A stretch of DNA of 60,061 nt, taken from positions 35,186 through 95,246 of the forward strand of contig MEVD01000006.1 of assembly GCA_001772865.1 (NCBI GenBank), read 5' to 3'. Source of the stretch: a candidate division WWE3 bacterium RIFCSPHIGHO2_02_FULL_38_14. GTDB taxonomy: Bacteria > Patescibacteriota > WWE3 > UBA101185 > UBA10185. The notes beneath the pieces were generated by a model. The model did no database searches, was not told the origin of the DNA, and worked only from the letters and a program-made list of their open reading frames with translations. The position numbers and the translations under genes are program-made. Below, piece by piece: positions 4,495 to 15,561 of the stretch (position 1 is its first letter; the number at the start of each line of letters is the position of its first letter).

Positions 4495-7396
4495 TTCTTC
4501 CACCTTCGTCACCGCCTTCTGGACCCAAGTCAATAATCCAGTCTGAGTTTTTTATAACATCCAAATTATGTTCTATTACTAAAACAGTGTTACCTTTTGC
4601 TGTTAAACGTTTAAAAATAGATATCAGCTTTTCCAAATCCGCAAAATGCAGGCCGGTTGTAGGTTCGTCCAATATATATAAAGTATGCCCCATAGCCCTT
4701 TTGCTAAGTTCCAAAGCCAGTTTAACTCTTTGCGCTTCACCGCCCGATAAAGTCGGTGCAGGCTGGCCAAGCTTAATATACCCCAAACCAACATCAAATA
4801 TTGTTTGAATTTTACGTCTAATTTGAGGAATATTTTCAAAGAATTTTAATGCTTCTTCAACAGTCATTTCAAGAACATCGCTGATATTCTTGCCTTTATA
4901 ATGAATTTCCAGAGCCTCCCTATTGTATCTCTTGCCCCGGCAGACATCACAATTCACATAAACATCGGGCATAAATTGCATTTCAATTTTAATTTGCCCC
5001 TCACCTCCGCAGGCTTCGCACCTTCCACCCTTTACATTAAAGCTAAACCTCCCCTGATCATAACCGCGTATTCTGGCTTCTTCGGTCTTGGAAAAAAGTT
5101 CCCGGACATGGTCGAAAGATTTTGTATAAGTAGCCGGATTAGATTTGGGAGTCCTTCCTATAGGAGACTGATCAATAGCAATCATATTTGTTAAATGTTC
5201 CACACCCTCCAGCAGCTTGTACTCTTCAGGTCTCTCTTCATTCTTCAGACCGAACTCCTGCCTTAATGCTCTATGCAATGTGTCCATAACCAGAGTAGAC
5301 TTTCCGGAACCGGATACCCCCGTTATACATACCAGCTTACCCAGCGGTACCTTTATATCTAAATTTTTCAAATTCCTTCCCGACGCTCCTCTTAAAACCA
5401 AATGTTCTCCGTTTTTATTGTTTTTCTTTTTAGCATACGCAATGTCATCATCTATTAATATTTCACTATAATATTTCCCAAATTCCGATCCGACGTTTTT
5501 TCTGCCAGATAAATAATCTCCCGTTAATGAATTTTTGTCAGACATTATTTCCTGAGGACTGCCGTGTGATACTACTCTACCGCCGTGATCACCCGCTCCC
5601 GGCCCAAAATCAAAAATATAATCGCTTTCCATTATAGTTTCAGTATCGTGTTCAACTACTAATACTGTGTTTCCTAAATCCCTTAAATGTTTCAGTGTGT
5701 TTATTAACTTACTTTGATCTCTTTGGTGTAAACCAATTGATGGTTCGTCCAGTACATATAAAACACCCGAAAGTCCCGAGCCTATTTGCGATGCTAATCT
5801 TATTCTTTGAGCCTCGCCTCCTGATAAATGAGATGAAGATCTGCTCAATGTTAAATAATTTAATCCTACATCCAGCAAAAATTTTATTCTGTACTTAATT
5901 TCCCTCAGTATTAAACTGGAAATCTTCTTCTCTTTTTCCGAAAATACATTTTCTAAATTTCCCGTCCATTCTTTTATATCTTTTATTGAAAGTTCCGTAG
6001 CTTCCCAAATATTTTTGCCATCGATCACAACTGACAGAAACTCTTTTTTTAGCCTGGATCCATTGCAGACCGGGCACGGTTCTCTCACCATAAATTTCTC
6101 TATTTCGGTCCTGATATATTCGGAATTAGTTTCTTTATGCCTTCTAATCAGGTTGGGAATAACTCCTTCAAAATGTGCATTAAAAGTATTGTGGTCACCC
6201 TCCCTATTAATGTAACTAACGCGGACTTTCTGTTTGTTCGGGATTCCGTATAAAATTGTATTTAAAGCTTCTTTAGAAAGTTTTCCAATAGGATCGCTCA
6301 AAGAAAACTCGAATTCTCTTGCTACTGATTCGATTACTTTTGATGTCCAAGTAAAGTGTTCAAAAAGTCGCGCCCACGGAAGAACCCCGCCTTCAGAAAC
6401 GGACAGCTTGGGGTTTATAATAATCGATTCATCTACCTCTAACTGAGTTCCCAATCCGTCGCAGTTTGAACAAGCTCCGTGCGGAGAATTAAATGAAAAA
6501 TTTCTGGGTTCTAAGTCAGGCAGTGAGATATTACAAACCGGACAGGCAAAATTTTCCGAAAACAAATGATCTTCAAAATTTTTAGGAGTATCAGCAAAAT
6601 CGAATTCTTTATCCCTAACAATTGTCAGCACAACGTTACCTCCGCTCAGCTTCAACGCAGACTCAATTGATTGAAACAGACTGCTTTCAAATAGCTTTCT
6701 TTCTTCATTATTCTTTAATTTCTTTAAATTAACTATTTGCCTTGTAACAATTGCTTCGATTGAATGTTTGTTAGTTTTAATAAGCTCAAAATGTTCTTTT
6801 AAATCCCTTACGGCTCCATCTATTCTCGCTCTTAAAATACCCTGCTTTTTCAGATTTTCAAACAGCGCTGAATATTCCCCTTTTCTGTCTTTCACTATCG
6901 GAGATAAAATAAAAAATCTCACTCCACGTTCACTTTTAAATTCTTTTTCTTGCGAAATAAGCTCAATTACTCTTGTAAGTATTTGATCACTGCTCTGCCT
7001 GCTTATTTCCCTTCCACAGTTTGGACAATGCGGGTGTCCTACTCTAGCGTATAGAAGACGGAAAAAATCATAAATTTCCGTGATAGTTCCTACGGTGGAT
7101 CTGGGATTTTTAGAAGTGGTTTTCTGATCGATTGCTATAGCAGGTGACAACCCTTCTATTTTATCTACATCCGGCTTATCCATTACCCCCAAAAACTGCC
7201 TTGCATATGCTGAAAGGCTTTCCACATATCTTCTCTGACCTTCCGCATAAATAGTATCCATCGCCAGACTAGACTTGCCCGATCCCGATACACCGGTAAA
7301 TACTACGAATTTATTTTTAGGTATTTCAAGATCTATATTTTTAAGATTATGCTGGCGCGCACCTTTAACTATAATGTGGTCTAAGGCTGAAGTCAT
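4355..7396 (-). CDS. uvrA: UvrA, excinuclease ABC subunit A
   Basis: UvrA is the dimeric ATPase that recognises damaged DNA and loads UvrB. Two ABC-type ATPase modules are visible: Walker A motifs at GVSGSGKSS (about residue 35) and GVSGSGKST (about 665), and ABC signatures LSGGEAQRI and LSGGEAQRV, each followed by an LDEP Walker B. Zinc-finger cysteines appear as CPVC/CSNC and CEAC/CDVC. At 1013 residues it is slightly long; the extra C-terminal tail (ESVMKYIRS onward) is the part that overlaps the convergent transglutaminase-like gene. The start lies 8 bp after the stop of the upstream alpha/beta hydrolase, so both are likely on one transcript. Confidence 0.98.
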   Translation of the reverse strand: MTSALDHIIVKGARQHNLKNIDLEIPKNKFVVFTGVSGSGKSSLAMDTIYAEGQRRYVESLSAYARQFLGVMDKPDVDKIEGLSPAIAIDQKTTSKNPRSTVGTITEIYDFFRLLYARVGHPHCPNCGREISRQSSDQILTRVIELISQEKEFKSERGVRFFILSPIVKDRKGEYSALFENLKKQGILRARIDGAVRDLKEHFELIKTNKHSIEAIVTRQIVNLKKLKNNEERKLFESSLFQSIESALKLSGGNVVLTIVRDKEFDFADTPKNFEDHLFSENFACPVCNISLPDLEPRNFSFNSPHGACSNCDGLGTQLEVDESIIINPKLSVSEGGVLPWARLFEHFTWTSKVIESVAREFEFSLSDPIGKLSKEALNTILYGIPNKQKVRVSYINREGDHNTFNAHFEGVIPNLIRRHKETNSEYIRTEIEKFMVREPCPVCNGSRLKKEFLSVVIDGKNIWEATELSIKDIKEWTGNLENVFSEKEKKISSLILREIKYRIKFLLDVGLNYLTLSRSSSHLSGGEAQRIRLASQIGSGLSGVLYVLDEPSIGLHQRDQSKLINTLKHLRDLGNTVLVVEHDTETIMESDYIFDFGPGAGDHGGRVVSHGSPQEIMSDKNSLTGDYLSGRKNVGSEFGKYYSEILIDDDIAYAKKKNNKNGEHLVLRGASGRNLKNLDIKVPLGKLVCITGVSGSGKSTLVMDTLHRALRQEFGLKNEERPEEYKLLEGVEHLTNMIAIDQSPIGRTPKSNPATYTKSFDHVRELFSKTEEARIRGYDQGRFSFNVKGGRCEACGGEGQIKIEMQFMPDVYVNCDVCRGKRYNREALEIHYKGKNISDVLEMTVEEALKFFENIPQIRRKIQTIFDVGLGYIKLGQPAPTLSGGEAQRVKLALELSKRAMGHTLYILDEPTTGLHFADLEKLISIFKRLTAKGNTVLVIEHNLDVIKNSDWIIDLGPEGGDEGGRIIFEGPLDELLRDKNSYTSEALKSTESVMKYIRSQKTGNLQEDKFR

Positions 7397-8924: not shown

Positions 8925-11357
8925 CTATGTTTTGCTGCTTTTTTTTCTTTCCGATTGACAAGTCATTGAAGGAATACTGCTTCCTTTAATAAAATACTCA
9001 CTGATATTGCATCTTTTATAATATATAAGAGTTACAATATCTGGTTTCATAAATACTTCGGAAGGTTTTCCCTGAAGCGTCAGACTCATAATTCGATTCC
9101 ACATGGGTGCAGCTCCGCTTAAACCTGAAGCCAGGTTTTTATTCATAGGGGTATTGTCATTATTACCTACCCAGGTAGCCACAACATATGACGGAGTATA
9201 TCCGAGCGTCAAATTATCCTTTTTATTATCGGTTGTTCCGGTTTTAACCGCTACCGTGTGACCGGTTATCGATAGAAAATTGTTTATCCCAAAAGCCGGT
9301 ATTCTGGCTTTATAGTCAGACAGGATATTAGTAATTAAAAAGCTGATTTCCTCGCTCAATACTCTTTTTTCTTTATCCTTTTCCAAAATCTCGATACCTT
9401 TAGAATCTTTAACTGATATAAATGGAGTAGTATTTTTATATACACCATATCTGGATAAAGTGGCATAAACATTCGCAAGGTCCAGAAGCCTAACTTCTTT
9501 TCCGCCTAAAGTTACGGAAATTCCGTAAGAACTATCTTTCTGCCAGGTAGTTAAACCCATATCTCTTCCTAACTCCACCATATTATCCGCTCCGAGTTTG
9601 CTGACCAATTTAACCGCAGGAATATTATAAGAATTTGCCAAAGCCTGTCTTACAGTCACCGTACCGTGGTATCTGCCGTCATAATTTACCGGCACATAGG
9701 TTTCCCACTGATTTTTATAAATGGTTTTTTCATCTTTTATAGTGGACAATGCCGTATATCCGTTTTTGAGAGCCAAGGCATATGTTACCGGCTTAATAGA
9801 GGATCCCGGCTGCCTATAAGCAGTCAATACATCAAATGATCCGAATTTATCGAAGTAATAGTCTCTAGATCCCACATAAGCCAGGATTTCTCCGGTTCTT
9901 GGATCCAAAACAATTGCCGCACCGTTTGAAATATTTAAATAAGCATTTTTAATTACTTCTTCAGATACTATCTGTTGAACTTTTTCATGGAAATCGAGGT
10001 CCAAAGTGGTTTTGACCGTAAGACCGCCTTTATCCACGATGTTTTTCCCGTATACTCTTTCCAGTTCATCTCTGACATACATTACAAAATGAGGAGCTCT
10101 TATATAATCTACCTGCGGAATAATATTTATTTCTTTTTTATAAGCAGCGTCTGCCTCTTCCGTAGCAACGTATCCAAGCTCAACCATTCTGTCCAGAACC
10201 AGCTTCTGGCGCGATTTTGTCAATTCTAAATCCCCGTTTAAAGGAGAATAATAAGTCGGTGCGGTCGGAAGTCCGGCGAGCAAAGAAGCTTCGGATAAAT
10301 CTAATTCCCAGACATTTTTTCCAAAATATTTTTTGGATGCCGACTGCACTCCCCAGGTTGTTCCACCGTAAGATATGTTATTCAAATAAAGTTCCAGAAT
10401 CTGATCTTTAGAAAAACTCTGCTCAACTTTTAAGGCGATCATTGCTTCTTTTATTTTTCTCACTATGGTACGTTCAGGTGTTAATAAAAGGTTTTTAACA
10501 AGCTGCTGGGTAATTGTTGACGCACCCTGAAGATTGTCTTCCAGAACAGTAGCTTTGGCGGCACGCAGTATGCTTAGCGGCCTGATACCGTTATGCAAAT
10601 AGAACTCGGAATCTTCAACTGCGATTGTACTGTTTTTAACAATATTCGGAATTTTTTCCAAAGCAACCGGCTCATACTTTTTATCTACAAATATTTCATA
10701 TAACAGCTTGTCGTTTCTGTCATAAATTTTGGTAGGCTGGTTCGGAATCCGCTGAAAAAGTTGATACGGGTCAGGAAGGCTTTCATAAAATACGAATACT
10801 GATAGGGGGATGGCAAAAAATACTATAGAGAATACCGTGCCGGAAGTGAAAAACAATAAAGTTTTAATATATGAAAAGAAATTTATTTTTTTAATTACAA
10901 TAGGAGCAACCGCGGTAGCCAAAGCTTCTTCCGAATCTATTATTATAATTTCCTGCAATACTTTTTGCGGATTTTTAAATTTGTTAGCTAAAGTATGAAT
11001 TAACTTTGATACGTTTATTTTTGGAATAGTAACATTCGAATAAAGTATTTTTAGGAAATATTCCTTAACTTTTCCGGTAATATTTCTGATATTTATTTCC
11101 GGAAACTGATAATCCAATGATTTTTCACCAAGAAATAAAAGAAAGTTTTTAAGAGGAGTCAATATATAAATAAGTGAATCAAATAAGAAAAGGTAGTTTA
11201 GTAGTATTAATATCGAAAATAAGCCATTTATCAGTCCGGATAAAAACCTAATCAATAAAAAAGGCAAAATTCTCAGGATCTTAATAATCGAACTTATTAA
11301 AGACCTTGAGTTGACCTTCAACATTATTCTTTTTACCATATCAAATGCAGCAATCAT
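8925..11357 (-). CDS. Class A penicillin-binding protein (glycosyltransferase 51 plus transpeptidase)
   Basis: This is a bifunctional peptidoglycan synthase: it polymerises glycan strands from lipid II and crosslinks the peptides. The GT51 domain (about 210-380) shows EDSEFYLHNG with the catalytic Glu, GASTITQQLVKN and the region ending at LLAGLPTAPTYYSPL. The transpeptidase domain has SSIK (Ser about 519), the SxN motif in ANSYNIP and KTGTT. The family normally has one N-terminal anchor. Here about 200 residues precede GT51, with several hydrophobic segments (about 20-70) and then the usual anchor at about 165-185. Length is 810 residues. The gene stands alone, with 80 bp to the hydrolase gene and the cassette array starting behind it on the other strand. 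Confidence 0.93.
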   Translation of the reverse strand: MIAAFDMVKRIMLKVNSRSLISSIIKILRILPFLLIRFLSGLINGLFSILILLNYLFLFDSLIYILTPLKNFLLFLGEKSLDYQFPEINIRNITGKVKEYFLKILYSNVTIPKINVSKLIHTLANKFKNPQKVLQEIIIIDSEEALATAVAPIVIKKINFFSYIKTLLFFTSGTVFSIVFFAIPLSVFVFYESLPDPYQLFQRIPNQPTKIYDRNDKLLYEIFVDKKYEPVALEKIPNIVKNSTIAVEDSEFYLHNGIRPLSILRAAKATVLEDNLQGASTITQQLVKNLLLTPERTIVRKIKEAMIALKVEQSFSKDQILELYLNNISYGGTTWGVQSASKKYFGKNVWELDLSEASLLAGLPTAPTYYSPLNGDLELTKSRQKLVLDRMVELGYVATEEADAAYKKEINIIPQVDYIRAPHFVMYVRDELERVYGKNIVDKGGLTVKTTLDLDFHEKVQQIVSEEVIKNAYLNISNGAAIVLDPRTGEILAYVGSRDYYFDKFGSFDVLTAYRQPGSSIKPVTYALALKNGYTALSTIKDEKTIYKNQWETYVPVNYDGRYHGTVTVRQALANSYNIPAVKLVSKLGADNMVELGRDMGLTTWQKDSSYGISVTLGGKEVRLLDLANVYATLSRYGVYKNTTPFISVKDSKGIEILEKDKEKRVLSEEISFLITNILSDYKARIPAFGINNFLSITGHTVAVKTGTTDNKKDNLTLGYTPSYVVATWVGNNDNTPMNKNLASGLSGAAPMWNRIMSLTLQGKPSEVFMKPDIVTLIYYKRCNISEYFIKGSSIPSMTCQSERKKSSKT

Positions 11358-11409
11358 AATTAAGAGATCGAAAATGGAATATTTAAATTACCCGGCTTTC
11401 CGATTTCTG

Positions 11410-11438
11410 TCGCTATGCTAGTAAAAGAATAGTATAAT
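11410..11438 (+). promoter_or_regulatory. Promoter of cassette 1
   Basis: A perfect TATAAT (11433-11438) is preceded at 17 bp by TCGCTA (11410-11415). The hexamers at the same place in cassettes 2 and 3 are TCGATA and TCAATA, so the -35 element is conserved but is not TTGACA. The distance from TATAAT to the ATG is 49 nt, and AATTAACA follows the -10. The leader ends in the strong ribosome binding site AAGGAAGAG. Confidence 0.65.
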
Positions 11439-11487
11439 GTCAATTAACACATCCTGTCGTTAAAACCGGCTAGAAAGGAAGAGTGAA

Positions 11488-11976
11488 ATGAGTGAATTGT
11501 TAGGTGGGATCTTTAAGCTGATCCCTCATAGCCGCGCCGGGTTTCTGGTTGTGGCCGTCGTTTTCGGGCTGATCGGATTTGTCGGTGTACAGATTTACAG
11601 GGGCATAGGTCCCGCAATCCCCGAACCGACTGTGGTACCAACATCTCCTTCTCCTGAGGCTCCGGCAGCTCCAGAAGTACCGGCTGCACCTGTATCACCG
11701 AGTGAGGTGGAAGGGCTTCCTATATTTTCCGGCAGTTTGAGGCTGGATGGCAATACATACTGGCCTCAAACTATTGAAAGCCAATATCAGCCGGGAGTTG
11801 ACAAAGGACTGGGAATTCTTTGTTATCAGAGCTCTACGGATTCCGTTAGGAGCTTCACCAACAGGTTTCCCAACGGAATGTCGGATACAACTCCCTGCGC
11901 ATTTTTCCGTATTTACGCGTATAGCTACTCGGCTGAAAACATCGCTGCAGTCAGCGATGTACAACCTCATCCGTGA
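11488..11976 (+). CDS. Cassette protein 1: small anchored secreted protein of unknown family
   Basis: I do not recognise this family. The 162-residue protein has a single hydrophobic helix (about 17-37), then a Pro/Ala/Thr-rich linker (about 42-72) and a C-terminal domain of about 85 residues that is clearly shared with the two following genes. Shared motifs are YWPQT, YQPGVDKGLGILCY, FPNGM, and PCAFFRIYAY followed by an Asn-Ile-Ala. Two cysteines are conserved, which would suit a disulfide outside the membrane. Topology suggests an N-in, C-out surface protein. The start ATG is fixed by AAGGAAGAG seven bases upstream. It has its own promoter and 3' hairpin. Codon use is GC-richer than in the flanking genes, which could mean transfer or selection for high expression. 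Confidence 0.8.
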   Translation: MSELLGGIFKLIPHSRAGFLVVAVVFGLIGFVGVQIYRGIGPAIPEPTVVPTSPSPEAPAAPEVPAAPVSPSEVEGLPIFSGSLRLDGNTYWPQTIESQYQPGVDKGLGILCYQSSTDSVRSFTNRFPNGMSDTTPCAFFRIYAYSYSAENIAAVSDVQPHP

Positions 11977-11982
11977 AAGAAC

Positions 11983-12014
11983 CGCCGCGCTTGTACTCAA
12001 AGATAAGCGCGGCG
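11983..12014 (+). other. Conserved 3' stem-loop of cassette 1
   Basis: The arms CGCCGCGCTT (11983-11992) and AAGCGCGGCG (12005-12014) pair perfectly over 10 bp around the loop GTACTCAAAGAT. The stem begins 7 nt after the TGA stop. No T-run follows directly, so a classical intrinsic terminator is doubtful. An RNA processing, stability or recombination signal is possible. Confidence 0.75.
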
Positions 12015-12093
12015 AGCCCTATAATTAATAATTAAAGTTCTTTGAGTAAATATAAATTATTAAAATATTAATAATAAATGGAAAATTTCATTT

Positions 12094-12122
12094 TCGATAT
12101 TTAAATACTAAAATAGTATAAT
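12094..12122 (+). promoter_or_regulatory. Promoter of cassette 2
   Basis: TATAAT (12117-12122) sits 17 bp after TCGATA (12094-12099). The distance to the ATG is 49 nt, the same as in cassette 1. The leader contains ATTAACATAT and the small inverted repeat CCGG-gtaaa-CCGG (12141-12153), then the ribosome binding site AGGAG (12161-12165). Confidence 0.65.
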
Positions 12123-12171
12123 AACAATTAACATATTACACCGGGTAAACCGGTTAGATGAGGAGATTTCA

Positions 12172-12639
12172 ATGAACAAGACCCTGGTAGGTTTTATAGT
12201 GGCGATACCGTTGATCATTGCTACTGTCTGGGCGGTCGACTTCTTTCGTGGTGAGTTACATCGCTCAGATGCAACACCTAAAGTTGTTCATTCAGTTGCA
12301 ACTGCTACACCCAGCGCAGTTGATGTGACTGTGACTCCATTAACTGATGTCGAAAACGAACTCCCTGTTTTCGAAGCAGACATCGAGGCAATAGGAAGCA
12401 TCTATTGGCCAAAGACCAACGTCCGAGATTACCAACCAAGACAAGAACACGGGTTGGTCATTCGCTGCTACGTTATGCAAACGGCTCCGATAGATGCATA
12501 CTCAGCCTCGTTTCCCAACGGGATGGAAGTAGGGACTATTTGTCCCTTTTTCCGGGTTATTGCCTACAAGTATAATTGGGATAATGCAGTAGCATCTACC
12601 CAGATGAGAGCACTACCAGGTCCCGGGGAAATACCTTGA
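12172..12639 (+). CDS. Cassette protein 2: small anchored secreted protein, paralog of its neighbours
   Basis: This is a 155-residue paralog of the genes on either side. It has one hydrophobic segment near the start (about 5-23), a Thr/Val/Pro-rich linker (about 33-62) and the shared C-terminal domain: YWPKT, DYQPRQEHGLVIRCY, SFPNGM, GTICPFFRVIAYKY and DNAVA. The two cysteines line up with those of the paralogs. The N-terminal parts of the three proteins are hardly alike, so the selected part is the C-terminal domain together with the flanking signals. The start is set by AGGAG six bases before the ATG. No enzyme motif is visible; ligand binding, adhesion or a role in cell-to-cell contact are guesses only. 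Confidence 0.8.
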   Translation: MNKTLVGFIVAIPLIIATVWAVDFFRGELHRSDATPKVVHSVATATPSAVDVTVTPLTDVENELPVFEADIEAIGSIYWPKTNVRDYQPRQEHGLVIRCYVMQTAPIDAYSASFPNGMEVGTICPFFRVIAYKYNWDNAVASTQMRALPGPGEIP

Positions 12640-12645
12640 AAGAGC

Positions 12646-12677
12646 CGCCGCGCTTGTACACAGTAATAAGCGCGGCG
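12646..12677 (+). other. Conserved 3' stem-loop of cassette 2
   Basis: The arms CGCCGCGCTT (12646-12655) and AAGCGCGGCG (12668-12677) enclose the loop GTACACAGTAAT. Stem and position (6 nt after the TGA) match those of the other two cassettes. CCCTCCAATA follows and is nearly the same after cassette 3; a TTTTT run comes only about 13 nt after the stem. Confidence 0.75.
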
Positions 12678-12757
12678 TGCCCTCCAATATTTTTAACATA
12701 GAAATTTAAATCATTTATCTCAAAATTATCTATTGTATTCCAATTATTAATATTCTA

Positions 12758-12786
12758 TCAATATATTTTGAAATTAATAGTATAAT
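12758..12786 (+). promoter_or_regulatory. Promoter of cassette 3
   Basis: TATAAT (12781-12786) sits 17 bp after TCAATA (12758-12763). ATTAACATAT and the inverted repeat CCGG-gttacg-CCGG (12805-12818) follow in the leader, then AAGAGG as ribosome binding site. The distance from TATAAT to the ATG is 46 nt. Confidence 0.65.
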
Positions 12787-12832
12787 ATGTATTAACATAT
12801 ACCACCGGGTTACGCCGGCTTAAGAGGTTGAA

Positions 12833-13315
12833 ATGAAACAGCTTTTCAGTGATCTGACCGAACATCCATGGATCGCAATTGCATTAGGTCTGTCGATCGC
12901 CATTGTTATGTTTAAGCCAATTTACAACTTTACGGGGCAATGGCACCCAACTGAGGATCCAATTATAGTTAGGTCAGTGGCAACACCGACTCCAGGGCCT
13001 TTAGTTGAGATGACCGAAACTCCGGGCGTATCAGCAGAAAATGAAGGTCAAGGTGATTTTGAAGCAGATCTGCAGCAAGTAGACGGATTGTACTTTCCTT
13101 CGACTTCTAATAGCCAGTACCAGCCTGCGGTTGAGAAAGGATTAATCATCCTTTGCTACTCTAATCCGGCTGATTTAGAAGAAAATCCGAAGTCCCGTTT
13201 CTTAAACGGCATGCCGGTCGGAACTAGCTGCCATTATTTCCGTGTTGTTGCTTGGCATTTTAGCACGGAAAATTGGGTAGCTCTCTCCGGAGTAAAGCCT
13301 GGCCCGCCGCCATAA
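12833..13315 (+). CDS. Cassette protein 3: small anchored secreted protein, paralog of its neighbours
   Basis: The third paralog has 160 residues: a hydrophobic helix at about 13-30, a Thr/Pro/Glu-rich linker (about 38-75) and the shared domain, seen as LYFPST, QYQPAVEKGLIILCY, FLNGM, GTSCHYFRVVAWHF and ENWVA, ending in a Pro/Gly-rich tail. The cysteine pair is kept. Its first residues differ fully from those of the other two copies. It has its own promoter and 3' hairpin, so the three genes look like independent transcription units rather than one operon. It is convergent with uvrB across 173 bp. Family and function unknown. Confidence 0.8.
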   Translation: MKQLFSDLTEHPWIAIALGLSIAIVMFKPIYNFTGQWHPTEDPIIVRSVATPTPGPLVEMTETPGVSAENEGQGDFEADLQQVDGLYFPSTSNSQYQPAVEKGLIILCYSNPADLEENPKSRFLNGMPVGTSCHYFRVVAWHFSTENWVALSGVKPGPPP

Positions 13316-13321
13316 AAGAGC

Positions 13322-13353
13322 CGCCGCGCTTGTACATTATGATAAGCGCGGCG
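13322..13353 (+). other. Conserved 3' stem-loop of cassette 3
   Basis: The arms CGCCGCGCTT (13322-13331) and AAGCGCGGCG (13344-13353) enclose the loop GTACATTATGAT. All three loops share GTAC at the 5' side and AT at the 3' side, with a variable middle. The rest of the gap to uvrB (13354-13488) is AT-rich and shows nothing I can name. Confidence 0.75.
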
Positions 13354-13488
13354 TTCCCTCCAATAATTTTCTTATTCTCAACATTTAGTAAATATTAAAA
13401 ATCTTTACTTTAATAAATTAAAAAATAAACAAGAATTTAAACTAAGATTATTCAGCTTATATTTAAACGCCAATAGATTCTTTTATCT

Positions 13489-15561
13489 TTACTCCGAATA
13501 CTTCTTGACTTCCCTAATCTTATCCCTTAATACCGCTGCTTTTTCAAAATTAAGCATTTCGGCTTCGTATCTCATCATTTCCGTCAGCTTCTTTACTTCT
13601 TTTTTCAGCTCTTTGGGGGGCAGTGTTCTGTAATCTATGTCTTCAATATCTTTATGTTTTTTCTTGTCCAACGACTCTTCTATAATTTCATCAATCAATT
13701 TCTCGCGGATCGGTTTCACTATCTGCTGGGGGGTAATTCCGTGTTCCTTATTATATTTTTCCTGAACTGCCCTTCTTCTATTAACTTCATCCATAGCTCT
13801 TTGCATACTAACGGTGACCGTATCGGCGTACATCACTACCTCCCCTAAAATGTGCCGTGCTGCCCTTCCCATAGTTTGAATCAAGGAAGTATCTGACCTC
13901 AAAAAACCCTCTTTGTCGGCGTCTAGAATGGCAACCAGTGAAACTTCCGGCAGATCCAGCCCTTCTCTCAACAAATTTATACCTACCAATACATCGTAAT
14001 TTCCCTTCCGCAGATCATCCAAAATATTAGTTCTCTCTAACGTATCAATATCAGAATGCAAATAAGTAACTTTCACCTGCTTATCTATTAAATAATAACT
14101 CAATTCTTCGGCCATTCTTTTGGTCAGTGTCGTCACCAAAACTCTTTCCTTTCTGTCTACCCTTTCTACAATCCTGGCCAATAGATCCTGAATTTGGCCT
14201 TGTGTGGGCAAAATACTAATTTTGGGGTCAACGATGCCTGTGGGTCTTATAAACAGTTCTTTAACACTACCTCCCGCCATGCTTAATTCCCATTCCGAAG
14301 GGGTTGCACTCACAAATATACATTGATTAGTTTTCCTCAAAAACTCCTCAAAGTTCAAAGGCCGGTTGTCCATTGCAGAAGGAAGCCTGAAACCATAATT
14401 CACCAGTGTTTCTTTCCTGGATCTATCGCCGTTATACATCCCTCTTATCTGGGGGACGGTGATATGAGACTCATCAATTACCAACAAATAATCCTTTGAA
14501 AAAAAGTCCATAAGAGAATACGGTGGATCTCCGGGATTCCTTCCGTCAAAATACCTGGAATAATTTTCAATTCCTTTGCAGTATCCAATTTCCATCATCA
14601 TTTCAAGATCATAGTTTGTCCTCTGCTGAAGTCTGTACGCCTCTATCATTTTTCCCTGGTCTCTAAGCTCTTTTAGTCGTATTTCCAAATCTTCCTGAAT
14701 TTGTTTTATTCCCGTTTCCCTTCTCTCATCAGCGGCAATGTAATGCTTGGCCGGATATATAAGCGCCGCACCGCCTTCTACCATTCTGTGAAGCATATAC
14801 TCCTGTTCGTTCTCAATAATTTCCCTGGAATGGCTTCCTCTTCGTTCTTCCGGCAGCATTGATCTGTCAATCGGCTCACCGGTTAAGGGATTAAATAAAA
14901 TTACCTCGGATAAAGAATCATTAAATATTTCTAATCTCATGGCATAATCAGCATAAGCCAGAAAGACGTCCACAACATCGCCTTTTACTCTATAAGTACC
15001 ACGCTTAAAGTCAAATTCCGAACGGTCATAATAAACCTGGTTCAGCCGTTTCAACAAATCTGCCATTCTTATTTTCATCCCTTTTTTCAGCTCTATAGCC
15101 ATTTTGGAATACTCTGCGGGCGAACCAAGATTGTAAATACATGAAACCGAGGAAACTACAATTACGTCTTTTCGAGTCATCAAAGAAGTAGTCGCTGACA
15201 ACCGTAGTTTATCTATCTGTTCATTAATATCTGCGTCCTTTTCTATATAGGTATCTGTTGAAGGTATATAACTTTCAGGCTGGTAATAATCGTAGTAGCT
15301 TACAAAATACTCTACAGCGTTTTCCGGGAAAAAATCGCGGAATTCCTGATAAAGCTGGGCCGCTAAAGTTTTATTATGAGAAATTACTAAAGTGGGTCTG
15401 CTAATATTTTTAATTACATTAGCAGCTACATAAGTTTTTCCGCTTCCTGTTACTCCCAACAATACCTCATTTTTTCTTCCTGCCAAAATATCTTTTGTCA
15501 GCCCATCAATTGCTTTAGGCTGATCGCCTGTAGGATAGTAATCCGATTTCAACTTGAACAT
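13489..15561 (-). CDS. uvrB: UvrB, excinuclease ABC subunit B
   Basis: UvrB is the helicase-like subunit that verifies damage and recruits UvrC. Walker A is GVTGSGKTY (about residue 36). The damage-probing beta-hairpin region reads YYDYYQPESYIPSTDTYIEK. The DEAD-like box is IDESH, and helicase motifs TLTKRMAEEL and QTMGRAARH are present. The C-terminal UVR domain (NFEKAAVLRDKIREVKK) matches the coiled pair that binds UvrC. The length of 690 is normal. It is divergent from the DUF2270 gene. TATTAT on the minus strand (15581-15576) ends 14 nt before the ATG and may be the -10, which would give a very short leader. Confidence 0.98.
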   Translation of the reverse strand: MFKLKSDYYPTGDQPKAIDGLTKDILAGRKNEVLLGVTGSGKTYVAANVIKNISRPTLVISHNKTLAAQLYQEFRDFFPENAVEYFVSYYDYYQPESYIPSTDTYIEKDADINEQIDKLRLSATTSLMTRKDVIVVSSVSCIYNLGSPAEYSKMAIELKKGMKIRMADLLKRLNQVYYDRSEFDFKRGTYRVKGDVVDVFLAYADYAMRLEIFNDSLSEVILFNPLTGEPIDRSMLPEERRGSHSREIIENEQEYMLHRMVEGGAALIYPAKHYIAADERRETGIKQIQEDLEIRLKELRDQGKMIEAYRLQQRTNYDLEMMMEIGYCKGIENYSRYFDGRNPGDPPYSLMDFFSKDYLLVIDESHITVPQIRGMYNGDRSRKETLVNYGFRLPSAMDNRPLNFEEFLRKTNQCIFVSATPSEWELSMAGGSVKELFIRPTGIVDPKISILPTQGQIQDLLARIVERVDRKERVLVTTLTKRMAEELSYYLIDKQVKVTYLHSDIDTLERTNILDDLRKGNYDVLVGINLLREGLDLPEVSLVAILDADKEGFLRSDTSLIQTMGRAARHILGEVVMYADTVTVSMQRAMDEVNRRRAVQEKYNKEHGITPQQIVKPIREKLIDEIIEESLDKKKHKDIEDIDYRTLPPKELKKEVKKLTEMMRYEAEMLNFEKAAVLRDKIREVKKYSE

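Follow-up and report, generated by a model that had tools for sequence, protein, structure and literature searches.

The array of small genes described here resembles several known systems in part. Integron gene cassettes offer the same picture of tandem single-gene units with a hairpin after each. Lineage-specific tandem surface-protein families of bacteria share with it an N-terminal anchor, a low-complexity linker and an exposed C-terminal domain, repeated in tandem paralogues. For the single domain, the likeness is to the FN3/Ig-like fold (Pfam fn3, PF00041), as the array domain is all-beta with ~85 residues and seven predicted strands, and its top Foldseek matches are FN3/Ig.

The array lies in a window of 60,061 nucleotides, the whole stretch of DNA that was analysed. 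The explanation that we favour, and to which we give about an even chance, is that a laterally acquired and twice-duplicated unit displays a constant, disulfide-stapled binding domain outside the membrane. A laterally acquired gene would have entered between uvrB and pbp1A, and its complete transcription unit (promoter, leader, gene and 3' hairpin) would then have been duplicated twice. A single N-terminal helix would anchor each small protein in the membrane, leaving a compact beta-sandwich, probably with a disulfide staple, to act outside it as a constant binding module. The displayed domain might bind a polymer or a further protein of the envelope, or a different cell. For the 3' hairpin, the likeliest role is to end or protect each transcript and to keep read-through out of uvrB and pbp1A on the opposite strand. 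If this explanation is right, these small displayed domains form an orphan binding family, encoded in the reduced genome of a kind of cell with largely unknown means of touching other cells, and the arrival of the three-unit array can be placed by synteny.

Array layout and insertion site

The ORF listing places three genes head to tail on the + strand, gene 1 at 11488-11976 (162 aa), gene 2 at 12172-12639 (155 aa) and gene 3 at 12833-13315 (160 aa). Their products are paralogues with pairwise protein identities of 33%, 37% and 40% (BLASTP, E 2e-25, 1e-24 and 1e-26). Every unit follows the same order of promoter, leader, gene and 3' hairpin with strict spacing. The first-pass annotation had described tandem units with a promoter, a gene and a 3' stem-loop, and these parts are present in all three. 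The paralogy (33-40%) and the repeated layout also support its proposal that a complete transcription unit was duplicated.

Both flanking genes lie on the - strand: pbp1A, a transglycosylase/transpeptidase (Pfam Transgly and Transpeptidase), at 8925-11357 on the left and uvrB (Pfam UvrB) at 13489-15561 on the right. Co-transcription of the array with either was rejected because the array is on the opposite strand. In most family genomes uvrB and pbp1A adjoin with conserved order and orientation, and the gap between them is 2131 bp here vs mostly ~7-226 bp in family genomes (start codons called mechanically). Since the two genes are near-adjacent in most family relatives, ~2.1 kb has been inserted at this site. 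The pbp1A leader GTAATTTAAATATTCCATTTTC-ATCTCTTAATT, common to relative G017, is kept at ~11357-11396 just outside the array, which bounds the insertion absent from family relatives within ~11397-13480. A promoter-like sequence on the - strand (TTGACA-N17-TAGCAT, 11415-11443) faces pbp1A, overlaps the -10 region of unit 1 and may drive pbp1A transcription since the insertion.

Relatives G009, G020, G023 and G024 hold other, longer sequence in the uvrB-pbp1A gap, so the site tolerates insertions and is a variable slot. The extra sequence (at L058, L052, L057 and L047, respectively) is ~0.6-1 kb long and unrelated, and one extra gap gene is seemingly common to G020 and G023. In uvrB itself, matches in G001, G005, G007, G011, G020, G021, G023 and G026 are split in two near query residues 230-266, which suggests that some family members have an alteration in or beside the UvrB interaction region.

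The array genes have a GC content of 0.47-0.51 vs 0.35 +/- 0.03 in 29 other genes of the window, and a GC3 of 0.43-0.47 vs 0.30 +/- 0.04 in the same genes, while the inter-unit spacers have 11-19% GC. The high GC could partly reflect the encoded residues, although GC3 is raised too, and a lateral origin of the array is likely. The insertion of sequence with foreign composition into the conserved uvrB-pbp1A pair is a new finding, missed by the first-pass annotation.

Foreign composition, a promoter and hairpin for every gene and orphan status would also suit what is left of a phage or some other parasitic element, carrying a moron-like set of membrane proteins. However, tblastn searches of phages and plasmids gave no meaningful match, no PHROG was matched and no phage gene lies nearby, making a parasitic remnant improbable. 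Instead of binding other cells, the proteins could serve the envelope of their own cell by assisting the adjoining pbp1A in cell-wall synthesis. Envelope polymers can be ligands of membrane-anchored beta domains, and the array does adjoin pbp1A in the one genome known. This role is nevertheless unlikely given the opposite strand, the separate promoters, the foreign composition and the presence of pbp1A without array genes in all relatives searched.

Architecture, divergence and relatives of the proteins

Each protein comprises a single N-terminal hydrophobic segment, a Pro/Thr linker and an all-beta C-terminal domain of ~85 residues. In gene 1 the membrane helix spans residues 17-39 and is followed by a Pro-rich linker and a beta domain from ~75 to 162; genes 2 and 3 encode the same architecture. 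Hydropathy over 19 residues is 1.87-2.47 at the N-terminus of the three proteins and all later peaks are <=0.79. All three thus have one N-terminal hydrophobic helix and a soluble remainder, as is typical of a single-pass anchor. The full-length AlphaFold model places the helix at 17-39 and gives the linker low confidence, and the C-terminal domain is modelled with seven strands at a mean pLDDT of 92.9 and a pTM of 0.84, from an alignment of only three sequences. This domain would lie outside the membrane at the cell surface.

The motifs YQP, GL-x-I-x-CY, NGM and T-x-C-x-[FY]-FR are invariant in the C-terminal domains of the three copies, in agreement with the first-pass annotation. Two cysteines of this domain are invariant. 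A homologue of the disulfide-forming VKOR is encoded in the same genome, which makes a disulfide between them plausible, and they probably form one within the beta domain. In a Foldseek search of the beta domain against PDB, many FN3/Ig chains stand at the top, though the matches are weak and not significant (best E 0.03-0.04, the others above; TM mostly 0.3-0.5, maximum 0.51). Together with the seven predicted strands, they suggest, below significance, an Ig-like sandwich.

Pairwise identity of the coding DNA is 0.43 in the N-terminal and 0.49 in the C-terminal part. Synonymous differences among the three genes are saturated (pS 0.75-0.89), whereas pN in the exposed domain is 0.41-0.43, and the beta domain is under purifying selection. 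The anchor and linker are the most divergent parts of the copies and the exposed domain the least. The N-terminal anchor and linker had been described as almost fully diverged; this does not hold for the linker, since copies 2 and 3 have SVATxTPxxxVxxTxTPxxxxENE in common. Conservation of the exposed domain and the regulatory parts had also been claimed, and is supported by pN/pS and by the identity of the flanks.

The same pattern had been likened to that of antigens or adhesins, in which selection on the exposed domain would drive the copies apart. A membrane anchor with an exposed domain and the tandem paralogues fit such variable surface proteins. Antigens diversify their exposed part, but among the three copies the exposed part does not evolve faster than the anchor. 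The conservation of the exposed domain relative to the anchor and linker argues against an antigen-like role, synonymous sites are saturated, and neither further array-gene copies nor silent copies were found elsewhere in the genome. We therefore consider variable antigens or adhesins a poor explanation, with little chance of being correct.

Searches of Pfam, NCBIfam, PHROGs, Rfam and, by sequence, PDB returned nothing meaningful for the array family, and no homologue of its proteins was found in 57 relatives, 45 genomes of the class or 380 of the phylum. Among weak genome matches at E < 0.1, many cross stop codons, and YQP, GLxIxCY and NGM occur together in none of the alignments read; these matches are chance. 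Scans for peptide patterns in viral and in GTDB contigs returned 9 GTDB stretches, all unrelated; for GTDB these scans demanded exact hits to short motifs, which distant relatives would escape. A literature search for this protein family found nothing. The initial statement that no known family is recognised thus stood across the Pfam, NCBIfam, PHROGs, PDB, phage, plasmid, viral-contig and 380-genome searches. Further copies, always with the hairpin, had been predicted, and none appeared in the genome, the 380 phylum genomes or the other collections searched. The evidence base is one array in one genome, and the absence of relatives is limited to the collections covered and to the sensitivity of the searches.

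Promoters, leaders and the 3' hairpin

The promoters of units 1 to 3 lie on the + strand at 11410-11438 (TCGCTA-N17-TATAAT, extended AATAGTATAAT), 12094-12122 (TCGATA-N17-TATAAT) and 12758-12786 (TCAATA-N17-TATAAT). Their common form is a -35-like TCxxTA, a 17-nt spacer and TATAAT, the last at 11433, 12117 and 12781 and at distances of 49, 49 and 46 nt to the ATG, respectively. Both AATAGTATAAT and ATTAACAYAT are invariant across the units, and the -10/start block has a pairwise DNA identity of 0.87. A hairpin in the 5' leader is weak and poorly conserved among the three units; its interpretation as a riboswitch was rejected, as it has only 4 pairs with several broken.

A whole-genome search for the promoter block (<=3 mismatches) gave one extra match outside the array, with 1 mismatch, on contig 15 of G000 (151110; L093:1501-1584 and following), 5' of a signal-peptide-bearing protein. 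This protein has repeated beta-type units, and a very long frame with FN3 domains lies immediately upstream of it. Near-identical FN3 domain pairs occur on contigs 14 (5151-5639) and 15 (149182-149655; loci L076, L082, L085 and L087) within very long frames of 2340 and 2334 aa, which probably represent a duplicated giant surface protein.

The 3' hairpins occupy 11982-12014, 12645-12677 and 13321-13353 on the + strand. Each starts exactly 5 nt past the stop codon of its gene and consists of a GC-rich 12-bp stem, CGCCGCGCTTGT ... ATAAGCGCGGCG, with an 8-base loop; the region has a folding energy of -26 to -29 kcal/mol. Both arms are identical in 3/3 copies without compensatory changes, and the hairpin block with its loop has a pairwise DNA identity of 0.86. 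Apart from these three hairpins, the 60 kb window has no stem of 9 bp or more that includes at least 6 G-C pairs; arm matches in it number 3 observed vs 0.24 expected (<=3 mismatches). The whole 0.94 Mb genome holds exactly the three array copies (reversed control, 0), and the hairpin sequence was not found in 379 other phylum genomes except for one 3-mismatch match in G335.

The 3' stem is not a textbook intrinsic terminator, because no T-run occurs within 0-2 bases after it in the three units. A T-rich stretch begins ~11-12 bases past the hairpin in units 2 and 3 only. Given the saturated synonymous sites, identity of the flanks is far beyond chance. The hairpin has been kept identical either by sequence constraint or by recent homogenisation, which three copies do not distinguish, and its identity beside scrambled silent sites offers a clean test case for homogenisation against sequence-specific recognition. 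A bolder proposal is that the hairpin is a sequence-specific element that a dedicated protein reads in either DNA or RNA form, defining a new self-contained surface-protein cassette able to move and multiply in streamlined (Patescibacteria-like) genomes; we hold this to be a long shot.

Comparison with described systems

Integron cassettes raise the question of whether the array is mobile, with the hairpin acting as a DNA recombination or folding site (like attC sites or REP elements) that captures and multiplies single-gene cassettes. This is consistent with a single hairpin placed at the same distance behind every gene, with arms that are identical without compensatory change beside genes at synonymous saturation, with tandem units in the same direction and with a slot that holds other sequence in some relatives. 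However, the attC R' and R'' boxes (GTTRRRY/RYYYAAC) were not found at the array, and the best match to an integron integrase in the genome scores 90 bits vs a cut-off of 265, with only weak Xer-type matches. Identity as an integron cassette was rejected on the boxes and the integrase. Unlike in integron cassettes, a conserved promoter precedes every unit and the genes are all paralogous and not mixed, and the genome has no further copy of the hairpin; a mobile cassette array has only a small likelihood.

The likeness to FN3 extends to sequence in one place, where a profile alignment sets NGM-xxx-T-x-C-x-FFR-xx-A of the array in register with the F-strand motif of FN3, GL-xP-x-T-x-Y-x-F-x-V-x-A. 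The array proteins differ in having no Pfam match, with none to fn3 (PF00041) up to E 5, and in structural matches with a TM of about 0.3-0.5 and an rmsd of 5-6 A. Scored profile against profile, the array domain gave no significant match to 28 FN3 domains taken from related genomes (probability 1.6%; 1/15 column shuffles higher). From the lineage-specific tandem surface-protein families, the array is set apart by its separate transcription units, its identical hairpins and its conserved exposed domain.
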